This document shows positions 30,317-51,330 of a stretch of 64,000 bases of DNA, one piece after another. How positions within the stretch are numbered: the first letter of the stretch is position 1; each line of letters opens with the position of its first letter. Position numbers and translations under genes: made by a program. The stretch covers positions 124,001-188,000 of the forward strand of contig JAFTTJ010000016.1 of the NCBI GenBank assembly GCA_017466825.1, given 5' to 3'. This DNA is from Clostridia bacterium (GTDB lineage: Bacteria; Bacillota; Clostridia; Christensenellales; Borkfalkiaceae). The notes beneath the pieces were generated by a model that was not told where the DNA came from, searched no databases, and saw only the letters and a program-made list of their open reading frames with translations.

Positions 30317-30341
30317 ACAGTATAAAAACGGAGGTGCAGTG

Positions 30342-30707: not shown

Positions 30708-30711
30708 GATT

Positions 30712-31041: not shown

Positions 31042-31129
31042 GGGGGAGAGAACATTGTACCCCGTAGCAAAAATAAATAATTATAGGAGTGAAAAAGGAA
31101 CAAAAACAAGCAAACGAAATAATGGATGA
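31007..31129 (+). CDS. Small protein of unknown function
   Basis: A 40-codon frame with a strong GGAGG site 6 bases before its ATG. MLFMEREYCIYKGERTLYPV is followed by a basic tail. It overlaps the preceding frame by 35 bases and the following one. The ribosome site is the best argument that it is translated; I know no family for it. Confidence 0.4.
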   Translation: MLFMEREYCIYKGERTLYPVAKINNYRSEKGTKTSKRNNG

Positions 31130-33447: not shown

Positions 33448-33772
33448 TACGTATAGAACTGCCTATATTTATGTGCGAAACGTCTTTGCGGGCGTGTTGG
33501 CGGAGACGGACTACGGATATTCTTTTGCCTACGACGAAGAGTATTTGCAAAGCGAAAACGCTACCGCCGTCAGTTTGACGTTACCGCTTACGGCAAATAA
33601 GTATCGGGCGAAAACGTTGTTCCCGTTCTTCGACGGGCTGATTCCCGAGGGGTGGCTACTCGATATCGTAACGCATAATTGGAAGATTTCACCGAGCGAT
33701 AGGTTCGGTGTGCTTTTGGTTGCTTGCAAAGACGCGGTAGGGAACGTAAGCGTAAGGAGTGAAAAACTATGA
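33440..33772 (+). CDS. hipS: HipS-like protein (HipA N-subdomain 1)
   Basis: A 110-residue stand-alone version of the N-terminal subdomain of HipA: VRNVFAGVLAETDYGYSFAYD, the ALTLPL-like SLTLPLTANKY, and FFDGLIPEGWLLDIV. In the tripartite HipBST system of E. coli O127, HipS neutralises the HipT kinase. Here it overlaps hipB by 8 bases and hipT by 4 (ATGA), matching that order. Confidence 0.85.
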   Translation: MSDTYRTAYIYVRNVFAGVLAETDYGYSFAYDEEYLQSENATAVSLTLPLTANKYRAKTLFPFFDGLIPEGWLLDIVTHNWKISPSDRFGVLLVACKDAVGNVSVRSEKL

Positions 33773-34737
33773 AATGTTTATGTTGTGGCAGAGAATTTAC
33801 GCCCAAAACGTCCATAGAAGAAGTGGAAAACGGTTGGCATAAAAAATGTGTGAAAGCGTTTTTCGGCGGTAGCAAGTTGCCGATATTAGACATATCGGAA
33901 GAAACGTTAAAACGGCTTGCCGAAGAAAGTACGAATAAGGGATTTACCGTTCCCGGCGTGCAAAAGAAATTGTCCTTGCATTTAACGGAGGGCGCGTCGC
34001 CAAGACTTACACTTGTCAACTATCCTACGGGGTATATTTTGAAGCCTCAAACGGAAGAATACGAGACCTTGCCCGAAGCTGAATACTTGGTTATGCAAAT
34101 GGCAAAGCGGGTGGGGATAAAAACCGTGCCCTTTGCGTTGATTAAGATGAATAGTAGGGGCGAATTTGCGTATATCACCAAGAGAATTGATAGGGCGCAG
34201 GTGGACGGCAAAATGCAAATGCTTGCGATGGAAGATTTTTGTCAACTTGAAGAGCGTTTGACGGAAGATAAGTATAAAGGTTCTTACGAGCGTTGCGCTA
34301 AGGTTATCAAAAAGTATTCGTCCATGGCGAAATTCGACTTAACGGAACTGTATTTGCGTTTGGTGTTCTCGTTTGTAATAGGCAATTCGGATATGCACTT
34401 GAAGAACTTTTCCATGATAGAAAAAGCAGAGGGAAGTAGCGAATACGTCTTATCTAGCGCATACGATTTACTGCCTGTAAACGCGATTATGCCCGAAGAT
34501 GAAGAAGAATTTGCCTTGACCATGTGCAAGAAGAAACGCAAAATTAGAAGAAAAGACTTCTTATCGTTCGCGGAAGAAATCGGCATAGAAAGTGTTACTG
34601 CAGAAAAATTACTTTCAAAGGTTATCAAGGAAAAGAAAGCTTTGCTTTCTATGACGGATGAATCGTATTTATCTGAAACCATAAAAGGACGTTTGAAAGA
34701 AATAATTTCCGCGCGTATCGGTATTTTAGAAGAATAA
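33769..34737 (+). CDS. hipT: HipT-like Ser/Thr kinase toxin
   Basis: A 322-residue HipA-type kinase lacking the N-terminal subdomain, which is encoded separately. A zinc-like start CLCCGREF ... WHKKC is followed by the phosphate loop PGVQKKLSLHL with an autophosphorylatable serine (about 64-72). LKPQTEEY and the catalytic loop GNSDMHLKNFSMI (about 204-216) and YDLLPV (DFD-like) follow. HipT of E. coli O127 phosphorylates TrpS; the target here is unknown. It sits at the right end of the recombinase element, which could therefore be stabilised by it. Confidence 0.85.
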   Translation: MKCLCCGREFTPKTSIEEVENGWHKKCVKAFFGGSKLPILDISEETLKRLAEESTNKGFTVPGVQKKLSLHLTEGASPRLTLVNYPTGYILKPQTEEYETLPEAEYLVMQMAKRVGIKTVPFALIKMNSRGEFAYITKRIDRAQVDGKMQMLAMEDFCQLEERLTEDKYKGSYERCAKVIKKYSSMAKFDLTELYLRLVFSFVIGNSDMHLKNFSMIEKAEGSSEYVLSSAYDLLPVNAIMPEDEEEFALTMCKKKRKIRRKDFLSFAEEIGIESVTAEKLLSKVIKEKKALLSMTDESYLSETIKGRLKEIISARIGILEE

Positions 34738-34872: not shown

Positions 34873-35883
34873 ATGGTAAAGAGTATTGATTTGTTTGCGG
34901 GAATTGGTGGGATCCGTCTGGGGTTTGATCAAGCGTTCAGCAAAGAGATAAAAACAGTATTTATAAGTGAATGGGATGAGCAAGCCCAAAAAACCTATAA
35001 AGCGAATTTTAAGGATGATTTTAGCATTGCTGGAGATATTACAAAAATAAAAGAAGATGAAATACCTGGATTTGATATCTGTTTGGCGGGATTTCCTTGT
35101 CAAGCGTTTAGTCTTGCAGGACAAAGAAAAGGTTTTGACGATAACTACAAAGGGCTTTGTCGCGGAACACTGTTTATGGATGTTGTCAGAATCTGTGAAT
35201 TTCATAAACCGAAAGTGATTTTTTGTGAGAATGTAAAAGGTCTGTTTATACACGATAGAGGAAGAACGTTCAAAATTATTTATAACGCCTTTGTTGAGTT
35301 GGGGTATAAAGTTTTTTACAAAATCCTAAATAGTAGGCATTTTGGTGTCCCTCAAAACAGAGAACGGGTTTATATTGTTGCGTTTAGAAACGATATTGCG
35401 CCCGAGAATTTCGATTTTCCAGATGCTACGGATGACACAAAGCGTTTATGGGATGTTAGAGAAGAAAAACCTGTTCCTGCAAAATACTATTTGAGCGATG
35501 TTTATTTGGAAACCTTAAGAAAACATAAGGCTCGCCATGAATTGAAAGGAAATGGATTTGGTTATGAGATTCGTGATTGGAGCGATGTTGCTGGGGCTAT
35601 CGTTTGTGGTGGGATGGGACGAGAAAGAAATCTTGTTGTAGATAAAAGACAAAAAAATCTTATCCCGACTACACATATTAAAGGAACAATAAACAAGGAG
35701 GGCGTTAGAAAAATGACACCTAGAGAGTGGGCCAGATTACAAGGATTTCCTGATTCTTTTGAATTGCCACTTGCGGATGTTCACTTATATAAGCAGCTTG
35801 GGAATAGTGTAACAGTTCCTGTGATTAATGAAATAGCAAAAAAAATAAAGGAGGTTCTCGATAATGTCAATAAAGGCAAATAA
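34873..35883 (+). CDS. C5-cytosine DNA methyltransferase, HpaII type
   Basis: Methylates cytosine with SAM. Motif I DLFAGIGGIRLGFD opens the protein. Motif IV is AGFPCQAFSLAGQRKGF with the catalytic Cys (about 76), motif VI ENVKG, motif VIII QNRERVYIVAF, motif IX MTPREWARLQGFP and motif X QLGNSVTVPV, all in order. Length 336 is typical of M.HpaII-class enzymes. It overlaps the HpaII-like endonuclease gene by 20 bases, so CCGG is the likely target (inference from the partner). Class 2 DISARM also includes a C5 methylase, so a double role cannot be excluded. Confidence 0.92.
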   Translation: MVKSIDLFAGIGGIRLGFDQAFSKEIKTVFISEWDEQAQKTYKANFKDDFSIAGDITKIKEDEIPGFDICLAGFPCQAFSLAGQRKGFDDNYKGLCRGTLFMDVVRICEFHKPKVIFCENVKGLFIHDRGRTFKIIYNAFVELGYKVFYKILNSRHFGVPQNRERVYIVAFRNDIAPENFDFPDATDDTKRLWDVREEKPVPAKYYLSDVYLETLRKHKARHELKGNGFGYEIRDWSDVAGAIVCGGMGRERNLVVDKRQKNLIPTTHIKGTINKEGVRKMTPREWARLQGFPDSFELPLADVHLYKQLGNSVTVPVINEIAKKIKEVLDNVNKGK

Positions 35884-36988
35884 AGGTGAATGGGGAGAAC
35901 CATATGCGGCAATTCGTATATTAGGAGACGGTAAATTATATATAGCTGATGCAAATGGAAACAAAAATCCTTCGGAGTGGATGAATGTTTTAGAATTAAT
36001 ACGTCACGAAACAGCGAGTCGTATAGTTTCTTATCGTTATAAAGCGGAAGAAGTTGAAATAGACGTTTTTGTGAATAATAGTTATGTAACATCATTTGCT
36101 GCAAACGAATTTATAAAGGTCGCAGATCAATTGGCTAGGGAAATCCCCCAGAAGAAAGGAAACTCTTTTGAGATATCTGATGCTTTATCAGATTTTATGC
36201 GGGAAATTGAAATGTTACATATAAAAGCAAAAAGTGTAGACAAAAGTGATATTTTTCTTACTATTTTAGATCCTAGAGCTTCCGTTATGAGAGAACATAT
36301 AGGATTTTCAATAAAATCTGAATTTGGTCAAAATCCTACACTTTTTAATACTGCAAAATCCTCTGCTGTCGTTTATGAGGTTTTAAACATGAATGATAAT
36401 TTGATGGACAAAATTAATTCTATGTTTGATGACAAAGGACATGTTCCAGTAGGGGGAAGATGTGATGCATTGATTTCAGATGGGTGTGATTTGAAATTTA
36501 TAGGCTTTCCTATTGCATCCAATGCAAAATGCGCGGCATTTAAAGAAAATCTTGATTTGATTAATCCTCGTTTAGCCGAAGTTATAGAGAGAATGCTGTG
36601 GAATCATTTTTTTAATCACGAGTCTTATGTGAATTTAGAAGCAGTAACGCAGACCATTATAAAGGATAATCCTTGTATGCTTACTCGTCCTGAAGAAAAA
36701 TATCCGTATATGATTAAGTCATTCTTATATGCTGCGTATTGTGGGATGACCGCTTCAACATTATGGAACGGAAACAGCCAAGTTAACGGGGGATTCATAA
36801 AAGTAAAACGAACTGGTGAGGTTGTTGCGCATTATGCGTTAGAATCTGATGCTTTTAAATCATATTTATATAAAAATTGTTATCTTGAATTTCCGTCAAC
36901 AAGTGAAAAGCATGGGTTCTATGCAAATGTATATAAAGAAGATGGTAAGTACTATTTTCGCTTAAATTTCCAAATTAGATATAGATAA
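35864..36988 (+). CDS. HpaII-family type II restriction endonuclease
   Basis: A 374-residue enzyme. KANKGEWGEPYAAIRILGDG at the N-terminus and ILDPRASVMREHIGFSIKSE with FGQNPTLFNTAKSSAVVYEV (about 135-172) match the HpaII family core. The latter includes the D-x(n)-SxK-type catalytic stretch GFSIKSE. HpaII cuts CCGG and is blocked by cytosine methylation, fitting the adjoining methyltransferase. It overlaps that gene by 20 bases and stands 11 bases before the next operon gene. Confidence 0.8.
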   Translation: MSIKANKGEWGEPYAAIRILGDGKLYIADANGNKNPSEWMNVLELIRHETASRIVSYRYKAEEVEIDVFVNNSYVTSFAANEFIKVADQLAREIPQKKGNSFEISDALSDFMREIEMLHIKAKSVDKSDIFLTILDPRASVMREHIGFSIKSEFGQNPTLFNTAKSSAVVYEVLNMNDNLMDKINSMFDDKGHVPVGGRCDALISDGCDLKFIGFPIASNAKCAAFKENLDLINPRLAEVIERMLWNHFFNHESYVNLEAVTQTIIKDNPCMLTRPEEKYPYMIKSFLYAAYCGMTASTLWNGNSQVNGGFIKVKRTGEVVAHYALESDAFKSYLYKNCYLEFPSTSEKHGFYANVYKEDGKYYFRLNFQIRYR

Positions 36989-36999: not shown

Positions 37000-38121
37000 A
37001 TGTTAGTTGAAAAAATTAGAGAGTATACAAAAAGAAAAGAACTTTCAAATAAAGCAAAATCAGAATTAGCAGAAATTCTAAAAGATGTTAATTTTGAAGA
37101 TAAAAGTGAAATACAAGGAATTATATCAGAATTACTTAATTTGCATGCGGATGTATTATATTCGTTTATATTAACATTAGACATTGAAAAGGCTAATATA
37201 TTGGCTGAAGAAATCGACTGCAAGAATGCTAACAAAGCTCTTCATATTTATTTATCAGTGTTGTCACTTCATAGGATTGGAAATGATGTTAAGGCAAAAA
37301 GTATTTTGGAACAATTTATTTCAGTTAACGCCTTTGGTAAAAAGATAAATAAACAAGTTTATATTGGTCTTGATAAAGCTTTGGGGTATGAAGGGGCCAG
37401 CGTATTGTTATCAGAATGTGAAAGTTGGAATCAAAGAAACATAAATGGTTTCCGTAAAATATGGATTGAAGCTGCGGAATATTTAAAAAATGATAAATTT
37501 TCAAAGTATGTATTACAGTGGTTTGAAAATAATAAAATAACTCCAACACAAAAGGAATTTTCTTCGTTTATTAAAACAGACAAAGTAGTTGAAGAACCGA
37601 AAGTTGTGGTAGAACAATCTAAACCTTTAAATGAATTGACAATAGAAGACCTATTGAAAGAGTTTGCAAAAAGGGTAAAGGATGCAGATAAAATAAAGGA
37701 AGAGAGAAATGAACTTTCATCATTAAATGTATCTCTTAAAAGTGAAATATTAAAATTAAAGCAAGATATTGTTCAGCAACAAGCAGATAACAAAAAGATT
37801 CTTTTAGATAAAGAAGAGATTGATAGAGAAAATTTAGAGTTGAGGAAACAGATTATTGAACTCAAAAATCTGTTAACTGAAAGCCAAGGGGAAACCCAAA
37901 AACTTAAAATGAAGTTGGAGAACGTAGAATCAGCTTATGGGCAAGCTGGACAAACAGAAGTAGATTCAATTGTAGGTAAAATAAAAAGTAGATTATCTTC
38001 AGAACATGAAAAATATTTGGAAATAAAAGCAAAAGAACCCGACATGGATTATTATGATGTCTTAATAGCTATGTTGGATGAGATTTATAGGGTTCTTAAG
38101 AAAAACGGTATTACATTTTAA
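37000..38121 (+). CDS. Helical and coiled-coil protein at the head of the DrmAB-type operon
   Basis: A 373-residue protein I do not recognise. Residues 1-190 are helical and repeat-like (LSNKAKSELAEILKD, LHIYLSVLSLHRIGND), possibly TPR-like. Residues about 215-325 are a long coiled coil (LKSEILKLKQDIVQQQ, LELRKQIIELKNLL). The last 50 residues form a small globular end. It is 11 bases after the endonuclease gene and 8 bases before the Hsp70-like gene, so it is probably a subunit or adaptor of that system. Confidence 0.6.
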   Translation: MLVEKIREYTKRKELSNKAKSELAEILKDVNFEDKSEIQGIISELLNLHADVLYSFILTLDIEKANILAEEIDCKNANKALHIYLSVLSLHRIGNDVKAKSILEQFISVNAFGKKINKQVYIGLDKALGYEGASVLLSECESWNQRNINGFRKIWIEAAEYLKNDKFSKYVLQWFENNKITPTQKEFSSFIKTDKVVEEPKVVVEQSKPLNELTIEDLLKEFAKRVKDADKIKEERNELSSLNVSLKSEILKLKQDIVQQQADNKKILLDKEEIDRENLELRKQIIELKNLLTESQGETQKLKMKLENVESAYGQAGQTEVDSIVGKIKSRLSSEHEKYLEIKAKEPDMDYYDVLIAMLDEIYRVLKKNGITF

Positions 38122-38129
38122 GGTGTATT

Positions 38130-39650
38130 ATGATAAATAATGAAGTACAAATTGAGCATTTTGGAATAGATTTCGGAACGACAAATATAGCAGTTGGCGG
38201 ACTAATTGTCGATAAAGAAACAAAAAGGGCTTTTAGAGTTTTGTATGGTGAAGATGGAGTTCCTTTTCCTTCTATAGTTGCCGTAAAATATGATTTTGAA
38301 AAAGGGAAACCCGTCGGGCGTTTTGGTAGAAAAGTAAAAACTCAAATTTCTTCTATGCAAGACGAAGGATATCAAATTATAAAATCTATAAAGACTGCTC
38401 TTGGTGACGAAGCTGCTATTTATGAAATTGGCCCAGAGAAATTATCTTCTACAAAAGTTGTAACGGTTTTAATTAAGGCAATAAAACGCCATTTACAAAC
38501 ACAATTGCAAAGAAAAGTTGAAATTAAAAATGCAACGGTGGCTGTTCCTGTTGATTTTAGCAATAAGCAAAGGGAAGAATTGTGTAAAGCTTTTGAAAAA
38601 GCAGGAATACATATCAATAAAATAGTAAGTGAATCAATGGCTGCTTATATTAGAAATAGGGAGTCAGTAAATGCGCTTTCTAACGTTATGGTTTTTGACT
38701 GGGGTGGAGGCACTTTAGATATTAGTTTATTGAAAGTCGAGAAAGGTAAAGTGTATGAAGAGGCGACATCTGGTTGGAAAGTGGCTGGGGATAAAATAGA
38801 CGAAACTATTGCAGAATTTGTACATAATCAATTTGTTAAAAATTATAACTTAACAATAGCCTTTAAGGACTTATCTATAAAGGACAAAACAAAACTTTTA
38901 ACCGAATGTGAAAAAGCAAAAATAACTTTCTCAGATGAAGATGAAATTGATGACCCTGCAATTATATCGATGTTTGATTATTGCGGTGAGAAAAAAGTGT
39001 TTTACAAACTTGAGTACGAAGATTTTTCTGCAAAAATTGGTGGAATTGTGAGTGAAGCTATTTTATCTATTGGTAAAGTTTTGAGTAAAGCCAATATGGG
39101 GCTTATAGATTTAGATGCTATAATAATAGTTGGAGGTAGCAGTAATCTGTTACCGTTAAGGAATGTAATGCTTGAAGAGTTTGAAAAAAAGCATAACATA
39201 AAAATTGTTTATCCAGATAAGCCTCAGTGGTCTGTTGCAGAAGGTGCTGCCGTAATAGACAGTGTTGAATGTCAATATGAAATAAATCAAGACATTTCTG
39301 TTGTTATGAGTGATGGTTCCATTTATCCGATTATTCCAAAAGGAAGTAAAATTCCTTTTGCTGGGGAACCTATTACGTTTGGAACTGTTGATAATGCTAC
39401 AAGTGCTAATTTTATAATAGCGGATGATAAAGATAATATTCTTGACCGTTTAACTATGCCTGCAAAGGGTTTTATGGGTGAGTATTTTGAGGTTTCAGGT
39501 AAAATTGATAATAATCTTATAGCAATGATTTCTATTACGGGAAATAAAATGATGGAAAAAGTTGGTGAAAAGCAAACGGAAATAAATCAATTAAGTTATT
39601 ATTGCGATATTTCTGAAATTGAAGACTTTAAGTTTGAGATAAAAGAATGA
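38130..39650 (+). CDS. Hsp70/DnaK-like ATPase
   Basis: A 506-residue Hsp70 relative. The phosphate 1 loop is GIDFGTTNIAVGG (about 10-22), then the VPVDFSNKQREEL stretch, phosphate 2 VFDWGGGTLDISLLKV (about 189-204) and the adenosine motif IIIVGGSSNLLPLR (about 330). The nucleotide-binding domain is complete. The C-terminal 120 residues are a short beta region, and the helical lid of DnaK is missing. It starts 8 bases after the coiled-coil gene and its last 4 bases overlap the helicase gene. Membership in a defence operon is inferred from this packing. Confidence 0.85.
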   Translation: MINNEVQIEHFGIDFGTTNIAVGGLIVDKETKRAFRVLYGEDGVPFPSIVAVKYDFEKGKPVGRFGRKVKTQISSMQDEGYQIIKSIKTALGDEAAIYEIGPEKLSSTKVVTVLIKAIKRHLQTQLQRKVEIKNATVAVPVDFSNKQREELCKAFEKAGIHINKIVSESMAAYIRNRESVNALSNVMVFDWGGGTLDISLLKVEKGKVYEEATSGWKVAGDKIDETIAEFVHNQFVKNYNLTIAFKDLSIKDKTKLLTECEKAKITFSDEDEIDDPAIISMFDYCGEKKVFYKLEYEDFSAKIGGIVSEAILSIGKVLSKANMGLIDLDAIIIVGGSSNLLPLRNVMLEEFEKKHNIKIVYPDKPQWSVAEGAAVIDSVECQYEINQDISVVMSDGSIYPIIPKGSKIPFAGEPITFGTVDNATSANFIIADDKDNILDRLTMPAKGFMGEYFEVSGKIDNNLIAMISITGNKMMEKVGEKQTEINQLSYYCDISEIEDFKFEIKE

Positions 39651-42205
39651 AAAAGAGTAATTTAGTATTTTCAAGCAATGTATATGTTCTTAATGGGCAC
39701 GGAAAGTTATCCGATCCCACTTTTATGGCGCATGTAATTGATCCTGGGGCTATAAGAGCTATGGTGGAGCATCAAAGAAAAATGGGCGGTATGCCAAAGT
39801 TGTCTCCATTGCAAAAAGAAATTTACGATAATGCTATTCCGTGTGCTTATTCCAATGGCGATTATACACATGGATCGATCAATGAAAATGGAATAATAGT
39901 TTGTGTAAATAAGTGTGAAAACGACGAATGTGTTTATTTTGCAAAATGTAGCAAGACTCCTGAATTTAGAAAGGTGTATAGGGATTCTGACGCGACGTTT
40001 GATTTTGTTGAAAAAGAAAATGAGACAGAAATAGAGTTTAATTTTGATATTGATTTGCCAGAAGTTCAAATATCTAAAAAAATATTTGTTCCCAAATTGA
40101 CAGCAAAAACGTTTCATTTGCCCACAAGACAACCCGAAATTGAGGAAATTGTGCGAAACAATAAGGCAAACGAATGGGGTGTTCGCTCTCACATTAGGCA
40201 TTTGGCGGATGAGACGACTACGATTGTTCGTGGCCACGTAAGAAGACATTGGCTACCGACAACGGTAACGTATGTGGTTAAGAAAGAAATTGTTCCCAAA
40301 TTACTAATTAAGAAGAATTTTATTAATAGAGATTTAATCAAGAAATTGGCGGAAAGGAGAGCTCAAAAAGCTATCGAAAACGCTATAATAACGCCTCAGA
40401 TTTATCAGTTGAAAAAAATTCAGCCTATAGATTCGGCAGAAGTCATTATTGGCAGTTCATTAAATTCTAAAATATTAGTTAATGCTGGTCCAGGGACAGG
40501 GAAGACACATACTGTTATTGAAAGGTTAAAATATATTGCTCGTGAGTATGATGACATAGACCCAGACAGTATATTGGTTTTATGTTTTTCACGAAGTGCC
40601 GTTAAGGTTATTCGAGACAGGTTGAATAAAGCCATGGATGCGCATGAAATCCCGTATATCGCAAAGAGATTTAATATATTAACATTCGACTCCTTTGCTA
40701 CGTGGTTTTTGAAACAAATTGAACCTAATTTTGATTTGTCGCCATATAATTATGATGAAAGAATTGGTAGATTTATTAAAAAATACGAGAAAGATCCTGA
40801 AGTCCTTGGCGTAGAATATTTAATTATTGACGAAGTGCAGGACTTAGTTGGAAAACGTGCAGAAATGGTGCGCTCGTTACTTAAATATATTAAATGTGGC
40901 TTTTTATTGTTGGGAGATGAATGTCAGGCAATATACGATTATCAAATTAATGATAAAAATGAATTAAATGCATCCAAACTATATGAATGGTTTGAGACGT
41001 ATTTTAATGAAAACTTAATTGAATATGAACTTACGAAAGAATGGAGACACCAAGGAGTACTAGAAGAAGCGTTTAAGCCGTTACGTCACGCAATGCAATA
41101 CAAGCCTTACTCAAATCAAAAAGAACAACTTTCTAAATTGTTTAAAAAATATGATATTCCAGAAATGAATACGGAAGATATTATTTATTGCTGTGATGGA
41201 GATCTTGGGAAAAGAGCAATTTTATCTTGGGCTAATGGGGATGCTTATAGACAAAGTCAAGAATTGTTTGCACGTGACGATATTTCTGTTAAACACACAA
41301 TTTTAACTGGAGCAAGAAAGCTTTTATTGCGTAAAGAATTAGCTTTAATTCTTAGTAAATTAACAACAGATACTGTAAATAAGAGAACTTTTTTTGGCAG
41401 TGGTAAAGCTATTGGTGTAAATGAAGAAGTTGTAACCGCTATTTGGGATGCTATTTTATTTACTTTAGAAATGGATTCTGATAATGAGGAATTTTCATTA
41501 CTTGCGCTTAGAAAAGCTTTGATTTCAGAAAAAAGAGTGGATGAGATATTAACGTCGCAAGAGGAATCTGATGTTATTATATCAACTATACATAAAGCAA
41601 AAGGCAAAGAATATGATACGGTTGTATTAAATAAATTTGGTTCAATATCTAATTCAGATGATGTTAAGGTTTATTATGTTGCATTAACAAGAACTAAAGG
41701 TGAGCTGATTGTTAAGTCAAAACAAAAGGCACCTTCTTATGATATTAAAACAGATAGTGGAAGATTTATTGAACTAAATAAGCAATATAAAATTAAAAGA
41801 ATAGAACTTGGTCTAGATGGAGATGTGGATCCTATAGGATTTATAGATAAAGGGTTAACAGGTTTTACTCCTGAAAAAAGACAAGATTATATTGTAAATA
41901 AGGTAAAAATAGGCGACCCTTTAAGAATTAGTAAATATAAAGGAGACTATTTGATAATTCACGAAGGACATGCTATTGGCCGTGTAAATCCAAGTGCTTT
42001 TAAGCAATATAGACATTACTTTCCAAGTGGAAAACATTATACGTATAGTTTTGATAAATATACAGACTATGTAGATGTTTTTGTAAAAGATATTGTATCT
42101 GTTGTTAATCAAAAATTGGATTCGGCAATTCCTGATCCCTATTTAAAGAGCGGATTTTGGTTAGGAATTGAATTTTGTGGATATGCAAAACCTATGGAGG
42201 AATAA
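39647..42205 (+). CDS. SF1 (UvrD/Rep-like) helicase with Cys-containing N-terminal region
   Basis: An 852-residue protein. Residues 1-270 are distinctive, with CVNKCENDECVYFAKC (about 88-103), a possible zinc or iron-sulfur site. The helicase core follows: Walker A NAGPGTGKTHTVIERLK (about 278), VLCFSRSAVKVIRDRL, Walker B LIIDEVQDLVG (about 393), LLGDECQAIYDY, STIHKAKGKEYDTVVL (about 645) and YYVALTRTKGEL (about 676). It is coupled to the Hsp70-like gene by an ATGA overlap and to the DrmA-like gene by a one-base overlap. Confidence 0.85.
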   Translation: MKKSNLVFSSNVYVLNGHGKLSDPTFMAHVIDPGAIRAMVEHQRKMGGMPKLSPLQKEIYDNAIPCAYSNGDYTHGSINENGIIVCVNKCENDECVYFAKCSKTPEFRKVYRDSDATFDFVEKENETEIEFNFDIDLPEVQISKKIFVPKLTAKTFHLPTRQPEIEEIVRNNKANEWGVRSHIRHLADETTTIVRGHVRRHWLPTTVTYVVKKEIVPKLLIKKNFINRDLIKKLAERRAQKAIENAIITPQIYQLKKIQPIDSAEVIIGSSLNSKILVNAGPGTGKTHTVIERLKYIAREYDDIDPDSILVLCFSRSAVKVIRDRLNKAMDAHEIPYIAKRFNILTFDSFATWFLKQIEPNFDLSPYNYDERIGRFIKKYEKDPEVLGVEYLIIDEVQDLVGKRAEMVRSLLKYIKCGFLLLGDECQAIYDYQINDKNELNASKLYEWFETYFNENLIEYELTKEWRHQGVLEEAFKPLRHAMQYKPYSNQKEQLSKLFKKYDIPEMNTEDIIYCCDGDLGKRAILSWANGDAYRQSQELFARDDISVKHTILTGARKLLLRKELALILSKLTTDTVNKRTFFGSGKAIGVNEEVVTAIWDAILFTLEMDSDNEEFSLLALRKALISEKRVDEILTSQEESDVIISTIHKAKGKEYDTVVLNKFGSISNSDDVKVYYVALTRTKGELIVKSKQKAPSYDIKTDSGRFIELNKQYKIKRIELGLDGDVDPIGFIDKGLTGFTPEKRQDYIVNKVKIGDPLRISKYKGDYLIIHEGHAIGRVNPSAFKQYRHYFPSGKHYTYSFDKYTDYVDVFVKDIVSVVNQKLDSAIPDPYLKSGFWLGIEFCGYAKPMEE

Positions 42206-45200
42206 TGGGAAAATTTGACTCATTTTACGAAGCAAAAAACTATATTATTGACATGATGCGAACTGAAATCGTAGGGCCTGTTAAGGAAGACGAGATTTTA
42301 GATTCTGCTCCGCTAAATACTTACGTTGCTGGAATTTTATGGGCACGCCCATTAAATTCCAATGGAAATAGTTCTGAAACAGAAGAAGAGCGTGAGTATG
42401 AAATGCATCGTGCTGTGTTGGAAGGAGAACCAATTGAGGAAGGAGAGGAGGAAAAAGCTGTTCCTGATGAAATTGCAATTGAAGAATTTCAAGGCGATAT
42501 TGTCGCAAATTCTTCAATAAGAAAACCTTCTACAATGGGCATAAGCGTTATGCTTTCACCAGAGACAAAAAATGTACAGGTAAGTTTTTCTTTTGCCAAA
42601 TATGAACATTCTGAAGAAGAGCGAGAATATGGCAACGAAGGGAAGAAACGTGTTTATTACTTGTATTCTCGAAAAGCGTATAAATTTAATTTAACGTTTG
42701 ATTTTTCTAAAGAAAGTGTTGAATATTTGCCTCTTGATAATGAAAAATTGGTGGGATATAATATCACAATCAAAGCGACAAAGAGAATGGGGAAGGCTGG
42801 TGAATCTCGTTTAGTAACCTTCTCTGTTTCAAATGATTTAAAAGCGCAATCTAAAGATATTGTATTAAACGAAAGTGCATTGTTTCAGTGTAAACTAAAT
42901 TTAAGAACTGAGCAAGGTGAATTTTTGCCTCTAGACCCTGGGTATTCTTCCGTGTATGATGTAGAGGATGAAATTTTGTCGATGCAGTATAAAGACGTGT
43001 TAAATTTTGCTCAAGGACATGGTTGTGCGACAGCTGTTTCGGAGAAGGATGGTAAATGTGAACACGTTTGGTCAGAATTTATTCCTGTTTTTGAACTTAA
43101 GCAAATGAAACCACCAGAGGTTGAAGATAAAGAACTTTTCTCCTTGCGCTTTTTGCATACGGGCACTAAACAACAGATTATAAGTAGATTAAAAAATTTT
43201 ATTGAGTTGTATAAGCACTGGGCTGACCAACAAAAAAAACGAGGCGAAACTGAGGCTTTCACCAAATATAAAAGAGCTGTAAAAGATTGTTTAAGGAAAA
43301 TTGAAATTTGCACTGAAAGAATATCTGAAGGAATAAAATGTTTGGCTGAAAATGATATCGCTTGGAAATCATTTGTTTTTGCCAATAAGGCGATGTATAA
43401 ACAAAGGGTTAGTATGGCGCTAATCAAGGGTGGCATTAACAATGCTTCTGAGTTTAGTAAAAAGATGTCAGAACCTTGTTGGTATCCATTTCAGTTGTTT
43501 TACCTATTAATGATTATACCAGATTTTATTGATAGTGATAGTCCATTTAAAGATGTGGTTGACTTGTTATGGTTTCCGACTGGTGGCGGTAAAACGGAAG
43601 CTTATTTGGCAGTATCAGCTTTTATAATTTTCTATGAAAGATTAAGAAAACAAAAAAGCGTGTTTGGTACGACGATTATAATGCGTTATACCTTACGTCT
43701 TCTAACGATACAACAGTTTGAGAGGGCATCTGCTTTAATATGTGCTTGTGAAAACGTTAGAAAAGAAGAACGTTTGGGCGGGAACGAGATTTCTATTGGT
43801 TTATGGATAGGTGGAGGTAGTGCTCCTAACACAATAGAGGATGCAATTAAGGCTCTTGAAAAATTGCGTGCCGGCGAACAACTTTACGAATTAGCGGACC
43901 CTGTTCAAATTACAAAATGCCCGTATTGTGGTAAAAAATTAAATGCATTAAATTATCACATTGAAAATAATAGAATGGAAATAATGTGTGATAACTGTGG
44001 GCACTTACCTGTTTATATCGTCGATACTGATATTTATGAAAAGATGCCAACGCTTGTAGTAAGTACTGTTGATAAATTTGCTCGCATTGTTTGGGAAGAA
44101 CGTGCAGGGCGTATTTTCGGTTGCAATGTTGATGCTACTAAGCCACGCCTCATTATTCAAGATGAATTGCACTTGATTTCAGGTCCACTTGGGACACTGA
44201 CGGGTTTATATGAAACAGCTGTAGATAAGCTGTGTTGGGATGATAATGGGGTAAAACCTAAAATTATTGCATCTACTGCTACAGTAAAAAATGCTGCTTA
44301 TCAAATAAAAGGTTTATATAATAGAAATCATTTCCAATTTCCACCGAGTGGCTTAGACAACAAAGATTCATTTTTTGCTGAGCAAGCAACAAAAGACGAT
44401 AAACCGAGCAGGTTTTATGTCGGATTATCGGAACAAGGAGGAAGCATGGTGGATTTAATGATTCGCGTGTTTTCTGCTTTAAGTTTAAGTGATTTCTATC
44501 TTGAAAAATCAGGGGTAGAAGAAAAAGTTTTGGACCAATATTACACGATAATTGGATATTTCAATGCAATAAAAGATTTAGGAACGGCATCAACCATTTT
44601 AAGAGAGAGAATGTATAATTATATATCGTCATTAATAAATGGTAAGTTTTGTGTTGAATCCGAAAAGTTAAACGTGGAAAAATTGGAAAATGGAAAATAT
44701 AAAGAAGAGATAAAAATGAAAGCAGGCGAGTTAACTAGCCGTAAAAATTCATCTGAAATAAGGGGTATTTTAGATGACTTAAATATAGGATATAAGCTTG
44801 ATGATAAAGATATGGCGTATAAATACGTATTGTCTTCAAATATGTTTTCAGTAGGGGTCGATATTGATAGACTTGGCCTGATGGCTGTTTATGGACAACC
44901 TAAAAGCAATGCCGATTATATTCAGGCAACTAGTCGTGTAGGTCGTTCTAATCCTGGTATAGTATTTTGTCTATATAATGCGTTTAGGTCTCGTGACAGG
45001 TCTCATTATGAAAGATTTAATCAATATCATAGTTGTTTTTATAAACACGTGGAATCAACTAGTGTAACTCCATTTTCTATGCGTAGTATTGAAAAAGGGC
45101 TACATGCAGTATTTATTGCATTGGTGAGACACTTAGTTTCAGGAATGAGTTCTAATGACTCTGCAAGGTTGTTTAATGCTAATAATTCTAAAGTTTGCGA

Positions 45201-45465
45201 AATAGAAGAGTATTTACTTAATAGAATTAAAGAAATACAACCTGCAGCTTTAGATGGTGCAATCGCCTTTTTAGAAGATTTCAAATACGCGTGGATGAAC
45301 GCTGGTTCGTCTTTAGTGTATGATGTTAGAAAAAAAGGTCGTGTTGCGGGGGAATATATATCTTTATTACAATCTTCCGAAAATGATAACGAAGATTTTA
45401 CTGTTTTGAATTCAGTGAGAAATGTTGAAAGTAGCTCAAATGTGTTTATTGTCCAGGAGGTATAA
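42205..45465 (+). CDS. drmA: DrmA-like DISARM helicase
   Basis: A 1086-residue SF2-type helicase with the DrmA pattern. An N-terminal region of about 440 residues precedes Walker A LLWFPTGGGKTEAYLAV (about 452). TIIMRYTLRLLTIQQFERA follows, then a zinc-binding CPYCGKKL ... CDNCG (about 572-600), the STVDKFARIVW stretch, DELHLISGPLGTLTGLYE (about 651) in place of a DEAH box, ASTATV, and the C-terminal SRVGRSNPGIVFCLYNAFRSRD (about 909). I start at ATG 42205, which overlaps the helicase stop and has GGAGG before it. DISARM uses DrmA with DrmB to restrict phage. Confidence 0.85.
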   Translation: MGKFDSFYEAKNYIIDMMRTEIVGPVKEDEILDSAPLNTYVAGILWARPLNSNGNSSETEEEREYEMHRAVLEGEPIEEGEEEKAVPDEIAIEEFQGDIVANSSIRKPSTMGISVMLSPETKNVQVSFSFAKYEHSEEEREYGNEGKKRVYYLYSRKAYKFNLTFDFSKESVEYLPLDNEKLVGYNITIKATKRMGKAGESRLVTFSVSNDLKAQSKDIVLNESALFQCKLNLRTEQGEFLPLDPGYSSVYDVEDEILSMQYKDVLNFAQGHGCATAVSEKDGKCEHVWSEFIPVFELKQMKPPEVEDKELFSLRFLHTGTKQQIISRLKNFIELYKHWADQQKKRGETEAFTKYKRAVKDCLRKIEICTERISEGIKCLAENDIAWKSFVFANKAMYKQRVSMALIKGGINNASEFSKKMSEPCWYPFQLFYLLMIIPDFIDSDSPFKDVVDLLWFPTGGGKTEAYLAVSAFIIFYERLRKQKSVFGTTIIMRYTLRLLTIQQFERASALICACENVRKEERLGGNEISIGLWIGGGSAPNTIEDAIKALEKLRAGEQLYELADPVQITKCPYCGKKLNALNYHIENNRMEIMCDNCGHLPVYIVDTDIYEKMPTLVVSTVDKFARIVWEERAGRIFGCNVDATKPRLIIQDELHLISGPLGTLTGLYETAVDKLCWDDNGVKPKIIASTATVKNAAYQIKGLYNRNHFQFPPSGLDNKDSFFAEQATKDDKPSRFYVGLSEQGGSMVDLMIRVFSALSLSDFYLEKSGVEEKVLDQYYTIIGYFNAIKDLGTASTILRERMYNYISSLINGKFCVESEKLNVEKLENGKYKEEIKMKAGELTSRKNSSEIRGILDDLNIGYKLDDKDMAYKYVLSSNMFSVGVDIDRLGLMAVYGQPKSNADYIQATSRVGRSNPGIVFCLYNAFRSRDRSHYERFNQYHSCFYKHVESTSVTPFSMRSIEKGLHAVFIALVRHLVSGMSSNDSARLFNANNSKVCEIEEYLLNRIKEIQPAALDGAIAFLEDFKYAWMNAGSSLVYDVRKKGRVAGEYISLLQSSENDNEDFTVLNSVRNVESSSNVFIVQEV

Positions 45466-45468
45466 TAA

Positions 45469-47271
45469 ATGGGATTAATAAGAAAAAACTCCTCTGCAAG
45501 TAAGCCTTTTGTTGTAGGTAAAGTAAGACAAAGTCAAGCAATTACTACGTTTGGGATAGGTTCTATGGTTGATTTTGTTAATCAAACGGCTATTATTTGT
45601 GGTACTGATAAATGGGATTGGTGTAATGATAAAGAATTTAAAATACATAATGTAAACCTTCAAAATTTGTTAAATGTAAAATACTTTGTAAAGCCTAAAA
45701 TATCATTAAAAGAAAACGCATGGGAAAATGACACGCCTGATTTACCAGCAGTGGTTTTTCCTAAAACTTTATATAATCCTAGGTGTCAAACGTTAGAAAA
45801 AGCAGGTCGATCGGATTGTAAACTTGACCATGGAAAATATAAATGTTATTGTGAAAAATGTAAAGGAAAAAGTCAATATCTCCCCTCAAGATTTGTGCTA
45901 GTTTGCCCGAAAGGACATATTGAAGATTTTCCGTATGAATGGTGGGTTCATGAAGCTCAAGGGAAAGAAAAGTGCGAAAAACCGAAATTGAGGATGTATT
46001 ATGTCGGAAACAAAACCGATATGGATAGCTTGTTTGTGGAATGTACTTGTTGCGGCGCAAAAAGATCGATGAAGGGAGCAAGTGCGCGTAATGCGTTTGC
46101 TAATTATTCGTGTTCAGGGAATCGTCCATGGCTAGGGGATAAGGAAACTTGTACAGCTAATGAAGAACAACAATATATGCAAATGCGAATCAGAAACGAA
46201 AGTAGTGTTTATTTTCCATGTACTGTTAGCGCATTAACAATTCCACCCTGGAGTACTAAGCTTGCAAAAAAGATACAAGAAAACAAGACGGAATATGAAA
46301 GAATAGTGGGGCCATTAACTGATTCGGACAAGCCTAGATTCATTGAGAAATTATGTAAGGAATTTCCTTATTTTGAAAAGTTAACAATAGAAGAATTGTT
46401 GAATAAATTGTTGGATAATGAAACTGAAGTTGTTCAAACTATGCAATCCATAATGGAAGATGAATACGATGCTATTTTAACATATAATACAGAAGATAAA
46501 AATAGCGATTATTTATCGCATGAGGAAGAAGTATCTGCTGAGTATAATCACATAATAGATAAAACAATAGCAATAGAAAGATTGACTGTTGTGACCGCAA
46601 TGGTTGGTTTTACGCGATTGACTGCACCTACAGGATACAATGCCCCTAATTTGGTTCCTATTTCTAAATCTTCAAAAGAATGGTATCCTGGCATTGAACA
46701 ACGTGGAGAAGGAATTTTTATCAAGTTTAATCAAACTATTTTAGATAAGTGGATGAGTAAATATGGCAGTCGTTATGAGTTTATGGGAGAAAGACTAAAA
46801 GAATCTTTTTTTGAAAATGATAGATTTTCTCCACAATATGTGTTCTTACATACTTTTGCCCATTTATTTATTAGGGAGTTGTCGAATTTGTGTGGATATA
46901 CTTCGGCATCCATTAAAGAAAGAATTTATTCTACTTATAAAGATGGTAAAAAGAAGATGTCTGGAGTGTTAGTTTACACTTCTACAGCCGATTCTGATGG
47001 AAGTTTAGGTGGATTAACTGAACAGGCACAAAAAATCAACATGGAAAGATTGTTGAAGTCTTTGCTAGAAAGAGGTAAATGGTGTAGTTCGGACCCTGTT
47101 TGTTATACGTCAAAAGAACAGGGCTTTATGTCTTTGAACTATGCTGCATGTTTTGCATGCACATTATTGCCAGAAACGTCTTGTGAATTTAGAAACGTTT
47201 TGTTGGATAGATGTTCTGTATGCGGAATGCCTGGTAATGAGGAGTTAGGATTATTAAATTGGAGGAAATAA
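45469..47271 (+). CDS. drmB: DrmB-like protein (DUF1998)
   Basis: A 600-residue DISARM DrmB homologue. The N-terminal VGKVRQSQAITTFGIGSMVD is the typical opening. Cys clusters CYCEKC, CTCCG and CSGNRPW suggest zinc binding. The C-terminal DUF1998 domain has YVFLHTFAHLFIRELS, YTSTADSDGSLGGLTEQA and the Cys-rich end AACFACTLLPETSCEFRN plus CSVCG. It begins 3 bases after the DrmA-like gene. DrmA and DrmB form the core complex in DISARM, but the PLD protein DrmC is missing here. Confidence 0.88.
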   Translation: MGLIRKNSSASKPFVVGKVRQSQAITTFGIGSMVDFVNQTAIICGTDKWDWCNDKEFKIHNVNLQNLLNVKYFVKPKISLKENAWENDTPDLPAVVFPKTLYNPRCQTLEKAGRSDCKLDHGKYKCYCEKCKGKSQYLPSRFVLVCPKGHIEDFPYEWWVHEAQGKEKCEKPKLRMYYVGNKTDMDSLFVECTCCGAKRSMKGASARNAFANYSCSGNRPWLGDKETCTANEEQQYMQMRIRNESSVYFPCTVSALTIPPWSTKLAKKIQENKTEYERIVGPLTDSDKPRFIEKLCKEFPYFEKLTIEELLNKLLDNETEVVQTMQSIMEDEYDAILTYNTEDKNSDYLSHEEEVSAEYNHIIDKTIAIERLTVVTAMVGFTRLTAPTGYNAPNLVPISKSSKEWYPGIEQRGEGIFIKFNQTILDKWMSKYGSRYEFMGERLKESFFENDRFSPQYVFLHTFAHLFIRELSNLCGYTSASIKERIYSTYKDGKKKMSGVLVYTSTADSDGSLGGLTEQAQKINMERLLKSLLERGKWCSSDPVCYTSKEQGFMSLNYAACFACTLLPETSCEFRNVLLDRCSVCGMPGNEELGLLNWRK

Positions 47272-47272
47272 G

Positions 47273-48934
47273 GTGAAGCTTATCCCAAATGTTTTAGGTA
47301 ATGAGTGTAAAAGTAATGCCGAAAGAAAAGTGTTTAAGTATTTGAAGGAGACTTCTTTCGACGAGGGCTATGCGTTTCATTCTGTTGGATTGCCCGAGCA
47401 CGAAAAGAAATCTTATTCTGAAGCAGATTTTATTGTTGTTACTAAATTTGGTGTATTATGTTTGGAAGTCAAAGGAGGGCAAGTAGATTGCGCTAATGGC
47501 GTGTGGGAATTTACTGATAGGTTTGGTAAAAAAAGTGTTAAAAATGAAGGCCCATTTGATCAAGCTGCAGGAGCATTATTTGCCTTAAAAACTGCATTAC
47601 TTAAACAATTTTACTGGGCGAAAAATATATCTTTTGCTAGTGGAGTCGTTATTCCTGATGTAACTTTTTCATACAGGGGTGTTTCAATTATTCCAGAAAT
47701 TCTATATGATTTTTCTTCAACTTTTTCTTTTGATGAATATATCAAGAAATGTCACGACTATTGGGACGATAGAAACAGAAGAGAATTTTCGTTTTTATCA
47801 AATGAAGAGATTGATCAAATAAAGAAGTTTATAAGAGATGACTTGCATTTTGTTCCAGCAGTAAGCAGTGTGGTAAATTCTATTGACGAACAGTTGATAA
47901 GGCTCACAGAGGAACAAATAAAAGTTTTGGATGCATTAGAAGAAAATGAAAAATTGCTCATTAATGGTCCAGCTGGTTCAGGTAAAACGTTGATTGCAAT
48001 GCAATATGCGCGTAATTGCGTGGAGAAGGGTAAAAGAGTTCTTTTTTTAACTTACAATAAAATGCTTGCAACGTTTTTGTCAAAAACCAATGCGTCTGAT
48101 TGCCTGTTTATAAAACATTTTCATGGTTTAATATCGGATTATATTGCTATTGATCCTAATCGAGTTAGTGATGCGAATTATTATTCCACATATTTACCCG
48201 AACAGTTATTAAAATATTTGTCAAACCATAAGACTATACAATATGATGTTTTGATAGTAGATGAAGGCCAAGATTTGTTAAATATAAAATATTTTCCTAT
48301 CTTTGATAAATTACTTAAAAAAGGATTGTATAATGGCAATTGGATGTTTTTCTATGATAGCAACCAAAATTTATTTAATAGGAATAGATTTGATAAGGCA
48401 ATGGAAGCTTTGCAAAGATATTATCCAATTAAATATAGATTAACAAAAAATTGTAGAAACACGGAGCCTATCTCACTATTTAATAAGCATATTTCTGGGA
48501 TTGAGTCAGGGAAAGCCATTGTAGATGGTGAAAATGTAAACATAATTAGCTGTAATGAAATTGATTTTGATAATAAGTTGGATAGTTTAATTTCAACGCT
48601 AATTGAATCTGGCGTTAAACAAAGTGAGATAGTGGTTTTATCTCCTGTTTTATTTGAAAATTCTATAATTGCTGGATATGAAGGAAAATACAAAGCTCTT
48701 ATAGCTAAGTTTTCTGGAGATTTTAATATATGCAATATTAATTACGCAACGATTCAGTCTTATAAAGGCTTAGATTCTAAGGTTGTGATCGCTGTGGATA
48801 TTCACAAGGAGAATTTAGAAGATAAAAGTATTTTGCTTTATACATTGTTGTCTAGAGCTAGAACTTTATTATATATTTTGTCGGATGGTGAAACCGAGAA
48901 AGAGCTAAAATATAAAGTTTTAATGGGTTTATAA
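47273..48934 (+). CDS. NERD-domain nuclease fused to SF1 helicase
   Basis: A 553-residue protein. The N-terminal NERD domain (about 10-140) has SEADFIVVTKFGVLCLEVKGG with the Asp and Glu-x-Lys expected of its PD-(D/E)XK-like site. The helicase part has Walker A INGPAGSGKTLIAMQY (about 230), RVLFLTYNKMLATFL, Walker B LIVDEGQDLLN (about 326), TKNCRNTEPI and SYKGLDSKVVIAV. The start is GTG at 47273 with GGAGG 8 bases upstream; no ATG fits. It begins one base after the DrmB-like stop and closes the operon, so it may supply the nuclease of this DISARM-like system. Confidence 0.8.
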   Translation: MKLIPNVLGNECKSNAERKVFKYLKETSFDEGYAFHSVGLPEHEKKSYSEADFIVVTKFGVLCLEVKGGQVDCANGVWEFTDRFGKKSVKNEGPFDQAAGALFALKTALLKQFYWAKNISFASGVVIPDVTFSYRGVSIIPEILYDFSSTFSFDEYIKKCHDYWDDRNRREFSFLSNEEIDQIKKFIRDDLHFVPAVSSVVNSIDEQLIRLTEEQIKVLDALEENEKLLINGPAGSGKTLIAMQYARNCVEKGKRVLFLTYNKMLATFLSKTNASDCLFIKHFHGLISDYIAIDPNRVSDANYYSTYLPEQLLKYLSNHKTIQYDVLIVDEGQDLLNIKYFPIFDKLLKKGLYNGNWMFFYDSNQNLFNRNRFDKAMEALQRYYPIKYRLTKNCRNTEPISLFNKHISGIESGKAIVDGENVNIISCNEIDFDNKLDSLISTLIESGVKQSEIVVLSPVLFENSIIAGYEGKYKALIAKFSGDFNICNINYATIQSYKGLDSKVVIAVDIHKENLEDKSILLYTLLSRARTLLYILSDGETEKELKYKVLMGL

Positions 48935-50055: not shown

Positions 50056-51306
50056 TTGAGCAAAGATTATAATTTTTATTTTGATGAAACATATCACGAC
50101 AAAGCGATTACATTATCCGAGAGAAAGTTGAATATTCTTGCCGATAATATCTTAGATGATTACATTGGCTTCTTTTGGGGAGCTCGCGAGGATAAAATAC
50201 CTGAAACTTTAGAGTTGTTTTTAAAGGTTGAAATAGAATTCAAGAAAGCTTTTTCGATGTCCGCAGAGAAAGAATTAAAAAGTCGCTGCTTTAGCAATAA
50301 TCAATTTAAGTATGGCGTAAAATCATTTAGTAATGTGCTATTGAATTTTTATACTAAACTATTTGATGTGTGCATAGACCGAAAATTAATATTTCAAATA
50401 GAAATTATTAGCAAAATGGAAATCCTTGTTAGAAGATTATTCCCTGACAGAGAGTGGTTTCGTAGGAATTGTTTTATTTATGACGTCTTTGTGTACTCGT
50501 TTTCCAAAATGCTTATTAACTATAACCATCAAGAACTCATAGATGTATTATGTCGTTTGGATGGGGCAACTAATGAAGAATGCATAGATGTATTAAACAA
50601 AACGGTGCTTAACATAATAGAAGCTGGCGAAAATGTTGATAGAAAAGGCGCAGAAGTACACCTATACAAGCAGTTCTTACCGATATTTAATTGCCCTGGA
50701 TTAAAAATCAATGCCGTAGGAATTCAAAAGTGGATATATTTCGCTAACTTTGATGGGCTGTGTAATCTTTTGAAGGAGTTATCAATTAATCCTAGAAGAA
50801 TTAACCTATATATTGATAAAGAAGATAATACTGTTACTACAGCTCAATCATATCCGTTTAAGATAACTATAGGTGTTGAATCTAAAGATAATATAGGGGT
50901 TAGAATATCTGATTGGTTGGTCGGATTTATAGGTAAAATGATTTGGGGGTTGGTTCACGATCCTCAAGTTATAGAGGAGAAAATTGTAGATATTGAAGCT
51001 ATCAAAACGCCAGATTTTTCAAGAAGAAGGTTAATAAATTCAAAGTGGTTTGATTTGAATGAAAAGCAATTTGATTGTTACAAGAAAGCGGCAAAATGCT
51101 TTATAACTCAGCAACCTCATAAATGGACAATTTTACATTGTACATATGCTGATCATTATATTCAATTTACGACATTATTGAGATATATTAATCAGTTCAC
51201 TTTTGATCAATATATTCAAATAGGACCAGAGACGCATCGAGATAAATATACAGAGTTTTGTCTGATTGAAATGCAGGCATATTATAAAACTATAGAAAAA
51301 ATTTGA
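50056..51306 (+). CDS. DUF3800-like protein (predicted RNase H fold)
   Basis: A 416-residue protein. The start NFYFDETYHDKAI resembles the first acidic motif of DUF3800 (FYFDES). SKDNIGVRISDWLVGFIGKM (about 276-295) resembles its last motif (giQxADlvaG). Residues between are helical and divergent. The TTG at 50056 is supported by GGAG 8 bases earlier. It stands 24 bases before a helicase-nuclease gene, so the two probably form one system. A nuclease role is predicted by fold only. Confidence 0.55.
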   Translation: MSKDYNFYFDETYHDKAITLSERKLNILADNILDDYIGFFWGAREDKIPETLELFLKVEIEFKKAFSMSAEKELKSRCFSNNQFKYGVKSFSNVLLNFYTKLFDVCIDRKLIFQIEIISKMEILVRRLFPDREWFRRNCFIYDVFVYSFSKMLINYNHQELIDVLCRLDGATNEECIDVLNKTVLNIIEAGENVDRKGAEVHLYKQFLPIFNCPGLKINAVGIQKWIYFANFDGLCNLLKELSINPRRINLYIDKEDNTVTTAQSYPFKITIGVESKDNIGVRISDWLVGFIGKMIWGLVHDPQVIEEKIVDIEAIKTPDFSRRRLINSKWFDLNEKQFDCYKKAAKCFITQQPHKWTILHCTYADHYIQFTTLLRYINQFTFDQYIQIGPETHRDKYTEFCLIEMQAYYKTIEKI

Positions 51307-51330
51307 TTTTGTATAATAAAACGAGGAATC

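Follow-up and report, generated by a model that had tools for sequence, protein, structure and literature searches.

Background

In the Serratia DISARM system, DrmAB is autoinhibited, opens on 5'-overhang DNA and senses methylation, and DrmA and DrmB purify at about 1:1 (PMC9142583). The same source describes DISARM DrmC as dispensable and often missing, and lists self-DNA avoidance and the identity of the nuclease as open questions for these systems. Many uncharacterised DISARM-like classes are mentioned in a preprint on YprA helicases (PMC12458937). Chaperones have also been described in conflict systems, as a phage sensor in the case of DnaJ with bNACHT25 (PMC12169576) and as setters of thresholds (PMC7159879). 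Here we describe an operon with drmA and drmB in a 64,000-nucleotide stretch (the window) of Clostridia bacterium contig JAFTTJ010000016.1, positions 124,001 to 188,000, assembly GCA_017466825.1. Its two DISARM genes are preceded by genes for a coiled-coil protein (cc), an Hsp70 and a superfamily 1 (SF1) helicase that begins with a Cys-rich domain, CN. These five genes are a conserved, co-inherited core, often followed by a gene for a NERD nuclease-helicase.

Operon structure and recurrence

Six intact open reading frames (ORFs) are tightly packed on the + strand between window positions 37000 and 48934. They encode, in order, cc, a lidless Hsp70, the CN-SF1 helicase (protein C), DrmA, DrmB and the NERD nuclease-helicase, and the junctions between successive genes from cc through NERD are +8, -4, -1, +3 and +1 bases. 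The preliminary description had proposed this operon, with gaps or overlaps of at most 8 bases, and had named its products as Hsp70, UvrD-type SF1, DrmA, DrmB and NERD; ORFs and junctions bear this out, and profile searches agree with the product calls.

Genome contigs were scanned with a profile of the Hsp70 alignment, and the best 80 of 190 relatives were retained. A clade of 41 Hsp70 loci (L028-L067 and L069) was used for the counts below, and 39 more distant Hsp70s were set aside. Within the clade, cc lies directly upstream of Hsp70 in 41/41 loci and the CN gene directly downstream in 39 of the 40 that are readable; locus L058 is scrambled, with its DrmA and protein C pieces on the opposite strand. 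DrmA comes next after CN in 27/37 loci readable beyond CN, so the order cc-Hsp70-C-DrmA is more than chance, and DrmB follows DrmA in all 24 readable cases. A NERD gene comes after DrmB in 11 of these 24; the last gene of L041 was not counted, having a NERD profile label (E 7e-9) but only UvrD from Pfam. Loci L048 and L049 are near-copies. The profiles of cc, of CN and of protein C's C-terminal domain were rebuilt once from matches in these same loci, which makes the counts of their presence dependent on the search. Across the five core genes (24 loci), junctions are at most 53 bases except one of -115, every start being set at the earliest possible codon. The Hsp70, SF1 and NERD genes thus recur beside drmAB in other genomes, as the preliminary description required for its reading to stand. 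DrmA-bearing Hsp70 loci occur in Bacillota, Actinomycetota, Melainabacteria, Synergistota and Bacteroidota, and a single viral contig, which appears both as L108 and as L196, has the whole gene set.

Scans started from individual genes gave further counts. A DrmA-first scan of 398 genomes found 18 carriers, with Hsp70 adjoining DrmA in 4 (the window, G280, G327 and G574). One stretch was examined per carrier, two in G604, with the second G400 copy left out; the contig breaks off directly upstream of DrmA in G400 and G590, and less than 2.3 kb from it in G578 and G609. The DrmB-first scan of 248 genomes of the order found 5 carriers, 2 of them with Hsp70 (the window and G111), and among the 18 loci from a DrmA-first scan of viral contigs Hsp70 was present in 1. 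When the 398 genomes were scanned with CN, 9 matches were obtained, 9/9 beside an Hsp70 (5/9 had supplied query rows); the corresponding Hsp70-first scan gave 8 matches. On plasmids, the search for clade Hsp70s gave 5 records at E 1e-20; their identity is 26-29% and none belongs to the clade. DrmA was found in 68 plasmid records, with no Hsp70 profile match in the 15 examined, and had no match in phage records.

The preliminary description had also suggested that the NERD protein could supply the nuclease. NERD is one of several alternatives in last position, its place after DrmB being taken elsewhere by UvrD-type helicases (L041, L044), an REase-helicase (L051) or a reverse transcriptase (L039), and NERD also follows drmAB on plasmids without Hsp70. 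For these reasons it is not the defining nuclease of the group, and we regard it as a candidate DNA-cutting effector. At the other end of the operon, L028, L030, L032, L033, L036, L039 and L047 encode a protein of about 640-1040 residues ahead of cc, and L029 has it in two pieces. Its counterpart in L025 (1016 residues, L025:12605-15655) had no Pfam or PADLOC match. In the cultured Paenibacillus sp. 1_12 (L032) the operon is complete, with this large upstream protein followed by cc, Hsp70, C, DrmA, DrmB and NERD.

Phylogeny and co-inheritance

In a quick IQ-TREE run on 63 DrmAs, the 30 Hsp70-linked DrmAs form one clade (SH-aLRT 100) among DISARM DrmAs. Its sister group (support 92) consists of 13 DISARM-like DrmAs, and NERD and a C5 methylase occur at several of these loci. 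A FastTree of 75 rows with viral-contig DrmAs added retained the same clade at support 100; lacking an outgroup, this tree does not test the sister group. Neither tree places an Hsp70-less row within the clade, and both uphold the expectation that DrmA groups with DISARM proteins, the tree test being on DrmA only. Neither run was bootstrapped. The 63-row tree omits six weak or short DrmA-like rows (L070, L100, L101, L105, L106 and L162); the 75-row tree omits the same six together with divergent L163, L164 and L168, duplicate L108 and viral L208 and L213. Duplicate loci L028, L029, L031, L046 and L064 were kept out of the trees. A second Hsp70-SF1-DrmA-DrmB locus, L153, falls outside the clade in both trees with unsteady neighbours, which means that Hsp70 either came to drmAB on two occasions or has been lost in other lineages.

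Pairwise distances across 24 loci are correlated as closely between Hsp70 and DrmA (0.920) as between DrmA and DrmB (0.919), and 0/2000 permutations were as high. Since linked genes share ancestry, this correlation is a measure of co-inheritance, not of contact.

Features of the core proteins

The Hsp70 (38130-39650, + strand; PF00012, E 4e-38) is a dedicated copy. The host's own dnaK is encoded elsewhere in the genome (G000:C24), as is a separate grpE, so the operon gene being the ordinary host DnaK was excluded. Residues 8-473 of its 506 align to host DnaK, covering the ATPase and substrate-binding domain beta (SBD-beta; hhalign, 100%, 435 columns), and by this alignment the operon protein has SBD-beta. 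Past the aligned part it holds 33 residues, against 135 in host DnaK, and has no alpha-helical lid, in agreement with the earlier call of a lidless protein. Equivalents of DnaK D8, T11, T12, K70, E171, D194, T199 and D201 are present. These ATPase residues are conserved in 39/39 aligned rows, with one, D8, in 38/39; the count omits 6/44 listed Hsp70s (L026, L027, L048, L049, L050 and L069). The only PADLOC model matched by the window Hsp70 is the B protein of PDC-M61; the match is weak (E 2e-5) and spans some 200 residues in the ATPase part.

The cc gene (37000-38121, + strand) encodes a helical-repeat/coiled-coil protein, a candidate co-chaperone or scaffold. It consists of an N-terminal helical-repeat domain (residues 1-190), a single helix of 129 residues (215-343) and a short C-terminal helix (349-368); the fold search covered residues 1-196 well, and the window cc matched no PADLOC model. 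A motif at the C terminus had raised the idea of a GrpE-like exchange factor, which was dropped when hhalign against GrpE of the host and its relatives gave a probability of 1.9% over 5 columns. The cc of L021 weakly matches PADLOC MkoC in its coiled coil (E 5e-4), which we regard as coiled-coil noise.

Protein C (39647-42205, + strand; UvrD profile E 3e-22) comprises the four-Cys CN domain (about residues 1-110), a low-confidence linker, the SF1 motor (258-697) and a beta-rich C-terminal domain (698-851). In the fold search with the whole protein, the matches were filled by the helicase motor. Four copies of CN were without a Pfam match at E 5, and the window copy was without a PADLOC match. 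HIRAN was tried for the C-terminal domain and set aside, as four such domains gave no Pfam HIRAN match at E 5. CN is kept in L021 and L024, where protein C has neither a helicase P-loop nor a Pfam helicase match over cut-off, and it stands alone beside Druantia-type helicases in L036, L047 and L053.

DrmA (42205-45465, + strand, from an ATG; a TTG at 42175 is the alternative start in the ORF list) is a YprA-family superfamily 2 helicase. Its PADLOC match has E 1e-212 and its only PDB match is DrmA 7s9v (E 3.5e-139); against NCBIfam DISARM_DrmAS it scores 910 bits, below the cut-off of 950. DrmB (45469-47271, + strand), the DUF1998/MZB zinc-binding partner of DrmA, matches PF09369 MZB (E 5e-7), NCBIfam DrmB_fam (475 bits, cut-off 240) and PADLOC DrmB (E 1e-82). 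Both are thus DISARM-type proteins. The NERD nuclease fused to an SF1-type helicase (47273-48934, + strand, GTG start) matches PF08378 (E 1.3e-11) and PADLOC RTasNERD-Hel (E 4e-43), and has a sub-threshold P-loop match to DrmD (PADLOC, E 0.009). No ORF in window 30001-56000 is matched at E 1e-4 by profiles built from annotated DrmC and DrmD proteins, and DrmE does not appear in the PADLOC matches listed for ten window proteins (25 matches each for three of them). The earlier statement that drmC, drmD and drmE are absent therefore stands for the first two, and for DrmE extends as far as those listed matches; the locus is not a canonical DISARM system.

The module beside other defence genes

The cc-Hsp70-CN module looks portable between defence systems, because it was found with DrmAB, with Druantia-type helicases and with an Ssp/BrxP-type locus. 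The Hsp70 is accordingly less specific to DISARM than the preliminary description had supposed. The CN-only genes of L036 and L047 are each followed by a fused YprA helicase that PADLOC calls DruE (E 2.5e-216 and 3e-211, respectively), and after it comes a NERD-helicase in L036 and a GajB/UvrD-like helicase in L047. The last protein of L047 had been considered as NERD and was dropped, since PADLOC ranks it GajB/UvrD-like; L036 alone retains NERD among the Druantia-type loci. The gene order in L053 is DruF-cc-Hsp70-CN-DruL-DruE. Fused DruE-like proteins were seen only in four tested relatives (L036, L047, L053 and L100). In Thermosyntropha lipolytica L031, with which L021 is taken as the same, protein C has no helicase P-loop, and the genes after it encode a PLD protein, a large protein of unknown type, a UvrD helicase, a PAPS-reductase protein resembling BrxP, and SspB.

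Several related loci lie outside the clade. Actinobacterial Hsp70s of another lineage (L100, L101, L105 and L106) lie near proteins of 1536-1581 residues that weakly match DrmA; of these, the L100 protein was tested and proved to be a YprA helicase of the DruE-like kind. A cyanobacterial locus (L071:1-20494) resembles ARMADA with an Hsp70: its distant Hsp70 is accompanied by genes like DrmD and PglX, a 2097-residue MZB helicase and a UvrD/NERD-like protein. In the genus of the window's genome, L193 and L194 combine two Hsp70s with a 1034-residue protein and one of about 376 residues that weakly matches GrpE, which recalls the HSP70/GrpE conflict theme of PMC7159879. In L013, L157, L158 and L199, DrmA and DrmB share one locus with a C5 methylase, a NERD-helicase and a protein some 850-885 residues long. 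For the 885-residue protein of L013 PADLOC gave no match, so it is not shown to be DrmE, and that label and the profile derived from it were withdrawn. Type III restriction-modification (RM) genes (PADLOC MTase_III and REase_III) stand in line with DrmA, DrmB and DrmC in L011:630-11167.

Genomic neighbourhood

Directly upstream of the operon lie a C5-cytosine DNA methyltransferase gene (34873-35883, + strand; PF00145, E 9.7e-98) and an HpaII-type restriction endonuclease gene (35864-36988, + strand; PF09561 RE_HpaII, E 1.4e-74, profile 1-359 of 359). The two genes overlap, and the endonuclease gene ends 11 bases upstream of cc, so the transcription unit may comprise eight genes, the RM pair and the six-gene operon. 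A consensus scan found no terminator-like site in the endonuclease-cc junction, although the scan was low-powered (8 sites overall versus 6.1 expected). A methylase is therefore present, as half of an RM pair that the preliminary description had missed, and it scores higher as a type II RM methylase (PADLOC MTase_II, 379 bits) than as DrmMII (260 bits). It is a candidate source of the self mark. In the clade, an HpaII-type endonuclease matching the same PADLOC model as the window's endonuclease is found with C5 methylases, in a divergent arrangement, in L042, and other upstream RM genes are EcoRII-C in L035, LlaJI plus an AAA_5 protein in L037 and HsdR in L051; the Pfam tests covered 20 flanking proteins.

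Further upstream, HipA is present as two genes, Couple_hipA and HipA_C (33440-34737), directly preceding the RM pair, and a MobA/VirD2-type relaxase and a large serine recombinase are encoded at 28824-33055. The adjoining relaxase and recombinase suggest that the island is located in or beside a mobilisable element. Downstream, a 416-residue protein without a Pfam match and a 1121-residue protein matching PADLOC DdmD (E 6e-35) are encoded at 50056-54696 and are possibly a second defence unit. An AAA_13 ATPase of 769 residues (55119-57428; E 3e-27) could be a further defence gene.

Proposed function and alternatives

We favour the reading that the operon is a DISARM-related, DNA-targeting defence system in which the dedicated Hsp70 gates a helicase-nuclease machine through CN, and put its probability at roughly one half (about 0.52). 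The defence function, the client and the gating are inferred. In such a system, DrmAB would load on unmodified DNA bearing a free 5' single-stranded end, as in Serratia DISARM, and protein C and the NERD helicase would move along the DrmAB-loaded DNA and cut it. The cc protein and the zinc-type CN domain may place the Hsp70 on its partners, so that it would hold the SF1/DrmAB/NERD motor-nuclease machine closed. An infection-linked client, either a phage protein or DNA-loaded DrmAB, would enter the Hsp70 substrate cleft and lead to ATP-dependent release, making this a two-key system that would ask for the right DNA and a chaperone licence. Self DNA may be marked by a cytosine methylase, in the window the one from the HpaII pair, and CN could be the plug that fits the same Hsp70 unit to Druantia-type and Ssp/BrxP-type machines. 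The wider proposal, that cc, the lidless Hsp70 and CN make up a portable switch on DISARM-like, Druantia-type and Ssp/BrxP-type machines with the Hsp70 client cycle as infection sensor or safety catch, is more tentative, and we rate it at rather less than even odds.

Several observations weigh against the favoured reading. NERD cannot be the cutting enzyme throughout, since 13/24 readable loci lack it. Methylase genes are inconstant, with a C5 methylase in 5/27 DrmA loci and the PglX type in 0/27 (C5 and PglX types were modelled, and flanks are often cut short). L153, the second Hsp70-SF1-DrmA lineage, has no CN match. The CN-first matches G558, G601 and G640 have a more distant Hsp70, with cc and drmAB not found there, and L026 and L027, more distant Hsp70s with CN, have degenerate ATPase motifs and are without cc or drmAB. 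The listed matches of the operon proteins include neither a J-domain nor GrpE, and cc shows no detectable similarity to GrpE. Finally, co-inheritance of linked genes fits a folding chaperone as well.

This last point leads to the alternative that survives best, in which the Hsp70 is a private assembly chaperone that folds or assembles very large helicase complexes and neither senses nor gates. The retained ATPase residues and SBD-beta would suit that role, as would the company of several unrelated large helicases (DrmA/DrmB, Druantia-type). However, the Hsp70 was not found beside DrmA in 14 of the 18 DrmA genomes (4 of the 14 with short or no upstream sequence), so such helicases need no chaperone as such, and a separate domain, CN, accompanied the Hsp70 in every CN-first match. 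We consider a pure assembly role unlikely.

It is a good deal less probable that the Hsp70 unit binds nucleic acid such as RNA and directs the system against viral transcripts or hybrids, the role put forward for CoCoNuT CnuD. CoCoNuT Hsp70s are described with degenerate Walker-A-like motifs, whereas the ATPase residues are kept in this clade, and no RNase family was over cut-off in the window's six genes. Another proposal, that cc-Hsp70-C is an independent defence system that merely adjoins a DISARM-like system in defence islands, draws on the trios without adjacent drmAB in L031, L036, L045, L047, L053 and L054. It is very doubtful in view of the fixed order, near-zero spacing, clade-exclusive pairing and matched divergence of the genes. 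UvrD and NERD proteins also have roles in repair. That the operon serves DNA repair or replication restart instead of defence is nonetheless hardly credible, even with repair branches in the YprA family (PMC12458937), given the sporadic Hsp70 (8/398 genomes), the adjoining RM genes with relaxase and recombinase upstream, and the position of DrmA on the DISARM side of that family.

In these samples the drmAB clade was never seen without its dedicated Hsp70, which makes a control layer visible and testable under the gating reading. If the portable-switch proposal is true, DNA restriction in bacteria has a dedicated chaperone as its infection sensor or safety catch; if Druantia-type and Ssp/BrxP-type machines are also under the control of this Hsp70 unit, chaperones would stand next to cyclic nucleotides as a general immunity switch. 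The CN domain, found beside an Hsp70 at each of its matches in the 398 genomes, provides a compact, searchable marker.

Comparison with known systems

No report of DrmAB combined with Hsp70 was found in open PMC papers, subscription papers and supplements lying outside this search. The text of the YprA preprint (PMC12458937) has 0 occurrences of Hsp70; because it mentions so many uncharacterised DISARM-like classes, the Hsp70-linked drmAB clade may already be within its tables.

The closest described systems are DISARM classes 1 and 2, with which the window shares a DrmA and a DrmB recognised by curated models and an adjoining RM methylase. It differs from them in adding cc, Hsp70 and CN-SF1 as a conserved core, in a methylase that is part of an HpaII-type pair, in the DrmC and DrmD not found and the DrmE not among the listed matches, and in a DrmA below the DISARM_DrmAS cut-off. 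Plasmid loci of rhizobia and Azospirillum (L141, L145 and L166) and viral L198 have a UvrD-type helicase, DrmA, DrmB and NERD in the same order as the window. They are without cc, Hsp70 or CN matches, their DrmAs are of another lineage and their records give no system name; they appear to be a DISARM variant of their own.

The cc-Hsp70-CN module stands inside the Druantia-type locus L053 (PADLOC DruE, DruF and DruL), and the pairing of a YprA helicase with NERD in TALON (PMC12458937) gives a likeness to ARMADA/TALON. Druantia and ARMADA have a single fused YprA helicase (DruE/ArmC type), whereas the window has split DrmA and DrmB. A faint likeness to the PADLOC candidate PDC-M61 lies in its B protein, weakly matched by the window Hsp70; the window cc matches no PADLOC model, and the matches listed for protein C, 25 out of 42, do not include PDC-M61.

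As in CoCoNuT CnuD and the GAP1-N2 HSP70/GrpE systems (PMC11090510; PMC7159879), an Hsp70-like ATPase is part of a defence or conflict operon. The McrB GTPase and McrC/DUF2357 partner of CoCoNuT are not among the Pfam or PADLOC matches listed for the operon proteins. Compared with both groups, the operon proteins have no GrpE match in those lists, and the Hsp70, with intact ATPase residues, is joined instead to DNA helicases and nucleases.

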